A stretch of DNA of 39,771 bases from an uncultured SAR86 cluster bacterium (GTDB taxonomy: Bacteria > Pseudomonadota > Gammaproteobacteria > Magnimaribacterales > D2472): positions 1 to 39,771 of the forward strand of contig CABXVU010000012.1 in the NCBI GenBank assembly GCA_902515775.1, in the 5' to 3' direction. Numbering within the stretch: the first letter of the stretch is position 1; every line of letters begins with the position of its first letter. Positions 27,962-30,086 of this stretch are shown one piece after another. Under the pieces are notes generated by a model. The model was given only the letters and a program-made list of their open reading frames with translations, made no database searches and had not been told where the DNA came from. The position numbers were made by a program, and so were the translations under genes.

Positions 27962-30086
27962 CTATATCTGTGGCATCCACTATTTTGATACCAAGTGTTT
28001 TTGCCTTTTCAAGTTTTGAGCCAGCATTTTCACCAGCAATTAAGTAATTAGTTTTATTTGAGATGGAGCTTGTAACTTTCGCACCCTGCAACATAAATAT
28101 ATTTTTTAAATCATCTCGAGACATTGGGGATACTTTTCCAGTAATTGCAATTTGTATTCCAGAGAATAATAAATCTTCATTAGAACTTTTTAAATCAGGA
28201 TTAATAATATTTATACAATTAAGTAATTTTTCAAGTGAAGTTTTATTTTCAATATCACGAATATAATCTGTGATCTTAGCAGCCATCCTTGGGCCAATGT
28301 CAGGCACTGCAATTAAATCTTCATAGCTTGATTTAAGTAAAGAATCCATAGTCCCAAAATAATTAGCTAAATTTCTTGAGGTTGTTTCGCCAACTTCCTC
28401 TATCCCTATAGCAAAAATTAATCTGTGTAATTCAACTGAAGTTGATTTCTTTAATGACTTAATTAAATTATCAACTGATTTCTTTCCGAACCTCTCTAAC
28501 TTTTCAAGCTCTGATCGATGGTCCTTCAAGGAATAAAGATCAGCAAAATCCTTTATAAATTTTTGATTAATTAGAGTTAATAATATTTCTTGACCAAGCC
28601 CATCAATATCCATTGCCTTTCTAGAAACAAAATGAGTGAATTTACCTTGAAAAATCTCAGGACAATTATTACCACCGGAGCATTTCATAAATGGAGTCTC
28701 AAAACGTTCTTCAGCTATGTGAATTTTTAATGCCTGATTTTCATCTAAAAATTTTTTTGCTTCGTAACTACTTGAGAACCTCTTTATTGGCTTAGACGTA
28801 TTTGTATCAACTATTGTCCACTCAGATTGAAAATTAATAACAATTTCAGCTTTACAACATGGGCATTTTTTTGGAATTTTGATTGAGTGCGATCTATTTT
28901 TCTTTTTTGGAATCACCTCAACCATTTTTGGGATAACATCTCCAGCTCTTTTTATTAAAGCACCGTCTCCTGGCCTAGGATCCAATCGTTTTAATTCATC
29001 AAAGTTGTGGAGAGTGCAATTGCTAACATTTACTCCGCCTACATTTACGGTTTTAAGCTTTGCAACTGGAGTCAAAATACCAGTTCTTCCAACCTGGAAA
29101 TCTATTTTTTCAATTTCTGTAAAAACTTCCTCAGCAGGGAATTTGTGTGCAATTGCCCATCTAGGTGATCTTGCTATTTCTCCAAGTTGTTTTTGCAAAG
29201 ATATCTCGTTAACTTTAAAAACAACTCCATCAATTTCAAATGGAATAGTATCTCTTGAAGATTCTATGTTTTGAAAATACTTAGAGCATTCAGTTATGGA
29301 GGACGCAAACTGATTTAAATCATTTACAGGCAATCCCCAAGAGGAAAAGACTGTAAATAATTCTTGTAAATCTATAAATGTTTTTCCAAGACACGATCCA
29401 ATACCGTGAGCAAAAAAAGCCAAGGGTCTTGAGCTAGTAATTGCAGGATCTAATTGTCTTAGACTTCCAGCCGCAGCATTTCTAGGATTTGCAAACACCT
29501 TTTCACTTTTTTGTTTTGCTTTTAGGTTTAAATCATCGAAGTCAGATTTACTGATAAATACTTCTCCCCTTACTTCAAGCAAATCAGGAAAAGTATGCTC
29601 AGATTGTTTTAACCTAAGAGGAATGGATCTAATTGTTCTAATGTTAGAGGTTATGTCCTCTCCAAGGGTTCCATCGCCTCTTGTAACTCCTCTAGTCAGA
29701 ATCCCCTTTTCATAAATTAGAGAAATGGCAGCTCCATCCATTTTTGGTTCGCAAAAATAATTTATACGTTGATCGTCGCCAAGATTTTTAATAATCCGAT
29801 CATGAAAGTTTTTTAAATCCTCTTCGTTGAAAGCATTAGCTAATGAGAGCATCTGCGAAAAATGTTTAAAGGTAGAAAAATCATTTGCGGGCTTAATTCC
29901 AATCCTTTGTGATGGAGACTCAGGAGTAATCCAATCTGGGTTTTGAGACTCTATTTGCTGTAATTCTCTGAATAGATTGTCATATTCTTGATCGGATATT
30001 GAAGGATTATCAAGAATATAGTATTCATGATCATAAGACCTTATTTTCTCTTGGATATTAAGATATCTCTTATTTAACTTATTCAT
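27930..30086 (-). CDS. ligA: NAD-dependent DNA ligase LigA, with enlarged zinc finger
   Basis: A 718-residue NAD+-dependent ligase; E. coli has 671. The AMP-accepting Lys115 is in [11 protein letters not shown], followed by the nucleotidyl-transferase motifs [21 protein letters not shown] and [12 protein letters not shown]. An OB fold comes next (about 318-400). Zinc ligands are Cys408, Cys411, Cys469 and Cys475; the first pair matches E. coli numbering, the second is shifted by 43 because of an insertion. Helix-hairpin-helix repeats (about 500-620) and a BRCT domain (640-715) complete it. It seals nicks in replication and repair. It overlaps zipA by four bases (ATGA) and the transglycosylase gene by 32. 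Confidence 0.96.

Follow-up and report, generated by a model that had tools for sequence, protein, structure and literature searches.

The ligase locus and the insert

The window, meaning here the whole 39,771-nucleotide stretch that was analysed, belongs to a SAR86 genome of 1.26 Mb (78% complete) in which one LigA was found. Below, f1 denotes the SAR86 family of the window, f2-f4 denote other SAR86 families, and g1-g10 are genera of f1. The ligA gene lies between two neighbours that mark the ligase locus, with the following features.

27341..27961, minus strand: SLT_4 lytic transglycosylase gene, the downstream neighbour marking the ligase locus (PF19489; synteny)
27930..30086, minus strand: ligA, NAD-dependent DNA ligase, 718 amino acids (Pfam domains, NCBIfam equivalog and KMDG motif)
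28662..28682, minus strand: second zinc pair, Cys469 and Cys475 (translated residues)
28695..28838, minus strand: inserted domain, estimated at about residues 417-464, with edges uncertain by a few residues (alignment with insert-less g3 and E. coli sequences)
28854..28865, minus strand: first zinc pair, Cys408 and Cys411, plus Cys410 (translated residues)
30083..30691, minus strand: zipA, the upstream neighbour marking the ligase locus (PF04354; synteny)

Genes for tRNA-Val(gac) (3001-3079) and tRNA-Leu(tag) (13673-13757) are also present in the window, both on the minus strand.

Judged by its domains and motifs, the ligA product is an NAD-dependent DNA ligase. The Pfam order adenylation, OB, HhH and BRCT is recovered (PF01653 at 313 bits), the adenylation motif KxDG is present as KMDG at residue 115, and two NCBIfam models are matched at equivalog level, NF005932 at 795 bits (cut-off 369) and TIGR00575 at 734 bits (cut-off 444). 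No zinc-finger Pfam model matches this LigA at E 1 or below. The four LigA zinc cysteines are in place in the translated sequence as Cys408 (codon 28863-28865), Cys411 (28854-28856) or Cys410, Cys469 (28680-28682) and Cys475 (28662-28664), and positions 28683-28853, residues 412-468, are exactly the span separating the two pairs.

The window LigA has every catalytic and DNA-clamp domain of E. coli LigA (2owo, 671 amino acids), arranged alike, and the four zinc cysteines as well, but an additional 43 residues lie between its zinc pairs and are predicted to form a separate small domain. In the alignment, residues 4-415 fall on E. coli 4-415, and window residue 466 then falls on E. coli 423. The spacer between the pairs is thus 57 residues rather than 14, which accounts for 43 of the 47 extra residues. 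The initial annotation had placed an insertion of about 43 residues here and had ascribed to it nearly all of the extra length over E. coli LigA; the coordinates are exact and both statements hold. A 14-residue spacer is typical of LigA and not defining, and other SAR86 families vary its length too.

The first zinc pair is itself variable. The window reads CPCC and a 99%-identical relative (G020, locus L021) reads CPCG; elsewhere in f1, some g3 sequences read CPCG, g6 reads CEC and g10 reads CPC. The second ligand of this pair seems, from these readings, to slide by one residue, and because G020 has CPCG and g6, g10 and some g3 sequences read CxC, either Cys410 or Cys411 may be the zinc ligand. 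All seven f2 LigAs (L107-L113) lack the fourth zinc cysteine, and the LigA zinc finger therefore looks degenerate in this sister family.

Distribution and history

LigA matches were detected in 133 of 203 genomes of the order, in 49 of 107 genomes of f1 and in 21 of 26 genomes of the window's genus. Sixty-six LigA sequences were extracted and 52 were placed in a tree, the 14 omitted being near-duplicates, fragments and spare f3 or f4 sequences; the insert columns were removed beforehand, the search was a quick one, and branch support is limited to SH-aLRT values. The f1 LigAs form one clade (SH-aLRT 99). Within this set, 31 of 35 f1 LigAs, from g1, g2, g4, g5, g6, g8, g9 and g10, carry the insert, whereas it is absent from 17 of 17 LigAs of f2, f3 and f4. 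The four insert-less f1 sequences all belong to g3 and are nested inside the f1 clade (99). The LigAs of g3 and f2-f4 are orthologous to that of the window, and in g3 the gene occupies the same zipA-SLT locus. On the tree, the insert was lost in g3 and never gained in f2-f4, and a single gain on the f1 stem followed by one loss in g3 is the simplest history. The insert-less LigA is the sole ligase type found in g3.

In a wider sample, 87 of 94 gammaproteobacterial genomes match the LigA OB domain, and the best-scoring 30 loci were read. The spacer is 14 residues in 29 of these (26 by script, three by eye), and the remaining locus has a broken frame. The insert is likewise absent from the five solved LigAs that were aligned. 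The comparison across Gammaproteobacteria that the initial annotation had proposed thus found the insert in none of these 29 readable loci.

A profile of the insert (alignment A1, 20 sequences) found only the window itself among 398 Pseudomonadota genomes, and only the window and one false match among 369 Gammaproteobacteria. The false match (G545, E 1.9e-4) spans 29 of the 54 profile positions and lies in a 610-residue frame that is, by eye, not a ligase. Three SAR86 genomes in the latter sample (G060, G191 and G112) gave no match to the profile: G060 carries an ATP-dependent ligase instead, and the LigAs of G191 and G112 align in two pieces, as insert-less sequences do.

Predicted fold, conserved residues and selection

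The structural elements predicted for the insert are listed here by position.

28680..28724, minus strand: predicted strand 3, residues 455-469, returning into the second zinc pair (AlphaFold2)
28740..28772, minus strand: invariant Ser439-x-x-Glu442 cap and predicted helix, residues 440-449 (AlphaFold2; 30 sequences)
28776..28790, minus strand: predicted strand 2, residues 433-437, with invariant Lys435 (AlphaFold2)
28806..28847, minus strand: predicted strand 1, residues 414-427, with invariant Trp423 (AlphaFold2)

Two AlphaFold2 predictions suggest that the insert probably folds as a small beta-beta-alpha-beta domain. For the whole LigA (alignment of 52 sequences), the mean pLDDT is 87, and 86-89 across residues 411-470, with a pTM of only 0.58. 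An 80-residue piece predicted alone (30 sequences) has a mean pLDDT of 86.5 and a similar order of elements, with both outer strands split in two. The compact unit that had been read from the sequence, as opposed to a disordered loop, is therefore upheld as a prediction, being ordered in both runs.

Trp423, Lys435, Ser439 and Glu442 are invariant in the 30 aligned sequences, Ala443 is found in 29, Phe466 in 28 and Phe437 in 25, and position 436 is Lys or Arg in 22. Ser439-x-x-Glu442 is presumably a helix-capping box, and the invariant residues look like fold-makers. The insert is near-neutral, with a net positive charge in six of the 30 sequences, and no conserved surface patch was seen among them. 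Mean identity across f1 is 35% in the insert, comparable to the linkers (32-33%), against 56% in the HhH, 62% in the adenylation and 75% in the OB domain.

The insert is under purifying selection: in 17 close pairs, its dN/dS is 0.05-0.39, against 0.07-0.13 in the remainder of LigA, these values being NG86 estimates over about 50 codons with several dS values above 1. In two of the 17 pairs, the insert value exceeds the remainder by a factor of three to four. Selection maintains the fold of the insert more than its surface.

Relatives of the insert

The search of the insert alone for remote homologues, another of the checks proposed initially, gave no firm sequence relative in Pfam, the PDB or phage records. 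Seven Pfam families were touched by the 20 members of the profile, each by a single member, with a best E of 0.005; the best E of the profile against PDB sequences was 0.57; and tblastn of two members against phages gave best E values of 2 and 9. PHROG 7157 was touched by seven of the 20 members (best E 0.0014). Individual scans of ten sequences, nine of which belong to other genera, returned scattered weak PHROG matches that did not include 7157; the sequences were mostly different ones, and the scan does not retest the seven matches.

A Foldseek search of the insert model against the PDB gave nothing at E 0.001 or below, and the best VIA-align score was Z 5.6 (2z0r, 45 residues, rmsd 2.5), followed by 4.3, a range that may reflect only a common arrangement. 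Against BFVD, many phage proteins of 38-69 residues were matched at a Foldseek probability near 1.0, with TMt up to 0.79 and E values of 0.03-0.3; one example has a TMt of 0.77 and an rmsd of 1.6 over 51 columns. One fold match carries the name DUF7336, for which no literature was found. When the full LigA model was searched, the best solved matches were LigAs, and the insert was barely covered by the comparison. The same search returned PDB 9a6z_B, whose title describes RpoB and DnlJ (LigA) in an integrative model based on cross-linking; this is a possible partner for the insert. The initial likening of the insert to small DNA- or protein-binding modules finds no support in these Pfam, PDB, PHROG and fold searches, since no such family was matched convincingly.

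The BFVD proteins, mostly uncharacterised, are of similar size and may resemble the insert in predicted fold but lack a significant Foldseek E-value or a firm sequence match to it. Together with the seven PHROG 7157 matches, the near-unity BFVD probabilities would fit an insert that is a domesticated small phage protein, a proposal that concerns origin only and is compatible with any function. It is considered improbable: no Foldseek match reaches E 0.001, PHROG 7157 was not seen in the ten sequences scanned singly, tblastn against phages reached no better than E 2, and so simple a fold arrangement can emerge repeatedly. Eight stretches on viral contigs fitted the pattern of an insert-bearing LigA, and none was confirmed as such.

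An ATP-dependent ligase in place of LigA

In f1, the LigA adenylation family was detected in 48 of 107 genomes (49 with the partial G020) and the ATP-dependent ligase family PF01068 in 42. Both ligases were found in one genome and neither in 17 (Fisher p = 9e-15, uncorrected for relatedness). Of the 19 f1 genomes with completeness of 90% or more and contamination of 5% or less, seven have LigA, ten the ATP ligase and two neither. In G052 and G048, each assembled as a single contig, the ATP ligase is present and LigA gave no match. PF01068 was found in 42 of the 203 order genomes, all of them in f1. The genome with both, G089, was rejected as a two-ligase genome: its LigA piece, a divergent fragment of 184 amino acids, scores only 25.6 bits to the window LigA, lies at a contig end away from zipA, and was judged by eye to be phage-type. 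In f3, genome G162 (96% complete) matches LigA only weakly (best E 1.4e-17) and PF01068 not at all.

The ATP ligase is about 428 amino acids long and consists of PF01068 and an OB-like domain. Each of the 30 loci read, out of 42, has it flanked by zipA and the SLT gene, in the slot of ligA; the ATP-ligase loci (L067-L096 and L129-L133) represent five f1 genera. Among the 369 sampled Gammaproteobacteria, 69 genomes match it, strongly only in the SAR86 genome G060, and the best of the others reaches 56 bits in an alignment that covers part of the protein. In G060, a two-contig genome that is 96% complete, the ATP ligase is present as two overlapping frames of 140 and 289 amino acids (C1:876685-877961), which could be a genuine split or a sequencing error.

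Relatives of the ATP ligase are common on contigs classed as viral, with 383 of 499 candidate stretches in IMG/VR encoding one; 80 were kept, at 56-68% identity. The viral label of these 80 rests on IMG/VR, and cellular contigs may sit among them, since only four of ten neighbouring ORFs on four viral-labelled contigs matched PHROGs and six did not. The 29 SAR86 ATP ligases of sufficient length form one clade (99) among the 80 relatives, in a quick, unrooted tree with no mixture model, flagged long branches and no cellular outgroup. On these sequences, the simplest reading is one capture from a virus-type source, though the transfer may have run the other way.

Within f1, the gene has moved at least once between genera. 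On a tree of the flanking genes (59 sequences, several weakly placed), the ligase type switches at least five times. In G042, a g5 genome, the ATP ligase nests among those of g9 (99) and shares 88% identity with the G095 (g9) enzyme. The flanking genes of G042 are nearer to those of G044, a g5 genome with LigA, than to those of G095: SMC at 83 versus 74% identity, ZipA at 66 versus 50%, SLT at 87 versus 75% and M16 at 71 versus 61%, the G044 comparison using partial SMC and M16. With a g9-like ligase between flanks nearer to G044, the ATP ligase gene moved without its flanks.

The closest solved relative of the SAR86 ATP ligase is Pmar-Lig from Prochlorococcus marinus (6rar, 6ras and 6rau; 453 bits over 423 residues, close to the full length). 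Pmar-Lig is reported in PMC6698739 as an extra enzyme beside the replicative NAD-dependent ligase, whereas the SAR86 enzyme sits in the place of ligA. A replacement like that in f1 is described in the accessible part of PMC4378268 for Babela massiliensis (TM6), an amoeba parasite in which the NAD-dependent ligase is replaced by an ATP-dependent one; that part mentions neither a replacement at the ligA locus nor a viral donor. The available main text of a SAR86 isolate and comparative-genomics paper (PMC11582366) mentions no DNA ligase, and no report of the insert or of the SAR86 ligase replacement was found among the open-access matches listed.

Possible roles of the insert

In E. coli LigA, as described in the available part of PMC8123306, the zinc finger bridges the OB and HhH domains while the NTase, OB and HhH domains hold the DNA, and the HhH, zinc finger and BRCT are counted among the substrate-recognition domains. 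The outer strands of the insert extend the strands beside the zinc cysteines, so the insert is expected to project as a rigid knob from the element that links the OB half of the DNA clamp to the HhH half. Such a domain would have been inserted once between the zinc cysteine pairs, on the f1 stem, and, among the f1 genera read, selection would have retained it wherever LigA persists, with g3 as the exception. Given its charge close to neutral and its emergence from the OB-HhH bridge, bracing of the clamp or docking of a partner protein is favoured over gripping of DNA, a mechanism that is inferred.

This reading, of a single inserted domain kept by selection that braces the clamp or docks a partner, is advanced tentatively, at somewhat less than an even chance. 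The distribution, two ordered models, dN/dS, the invariant residues, the near-neutral charge and the bridging position of the E. coli zinc finger all speak for it. Against it stand the pTM of the full model, the linker-level identity, the lack of a conserved patch, the viability of g3 without the insert and the two pairs with raised insert dN/dS; no partner is known.

The insert could also be a neutral ornament, a tolerated insertion for which clean deletion is rare and which is constrained only to fold harmlessly. Its loss in g3, where the insert-less LigA is the only ligase type found, and the low identity beyond fold-making residues are what would be expected of one, but purifying selection and retention in the other LigA-bearing f1 genera, despite small genomes, make this rather unlikely.

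Less probable still is that the insert adds DNA contacts and raises affinity or footprint, in line with the altered DNA grip suggested initially. The listing of the zinc finger in substrate recognition, the invariant Lys435 and the frequent Lys or Arg at 436 are consistent with such contacts. An altered DNA grip is nevertheless not supported, given a net charge near zero that is positive in only six of 30 sequences, a zinc finger described as a bridge, and no convincing match to a DNA-binding family.

It is also conceivable, at rather long odds, that the insert shields or alters the LigA clamp against a phage protein, and that the same pressure later favoured the virus-type ligase. The variable surface over a conserved core would suit an arms race, as would an ATP ligase that was found only in f1 among the 203 order genomes, sits in the place of ligA and has relatives on viral contigs. 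The pairwise dN/dS values show purifying selection instead, chance capture accounts for the swap equally well, and to our knowledge no phage protein acts in this way on a host ligase. A broader version, in which the f1 ligase locus is under special pressure (perhaps phage interference) that first produced a variable mini-domain and then a virus-derived ATP-ligase replacement spreading between genera between zipA and slt, is granted only a slight chance, and a causal link between the insert and the ligase swap is speculation.

Finally, an artefact (a frameshift, mis-assembly or intein-like element) is refuted by the distribution and has next to no probability, since the frame is open and under purifying selection and the 31 insert-bearing f1 LigAs come from many separate assemblies and several genera, so that the insert is neither chance nor an assembly slip.

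Implications

Bracing of the clamp or docking of a partner remains the preferred role for the insert, which is real, probably folded and specific to one lineage. SAR86 are abundant marine bacteria and LigA is their essential DNA-sealing enzyme, and the zinc-finger bridge of this enzyme can accept a whole extra domain. The gain and loss of the insert, present in f1 and missing from g3, is a natural experiment on the role of that bridge. In relatives of the window genome, a virus-type ATP ligase has displaced LigA at its own locus, so that it becomes testable whether the special features of LigA are necessary for bacterial replication.
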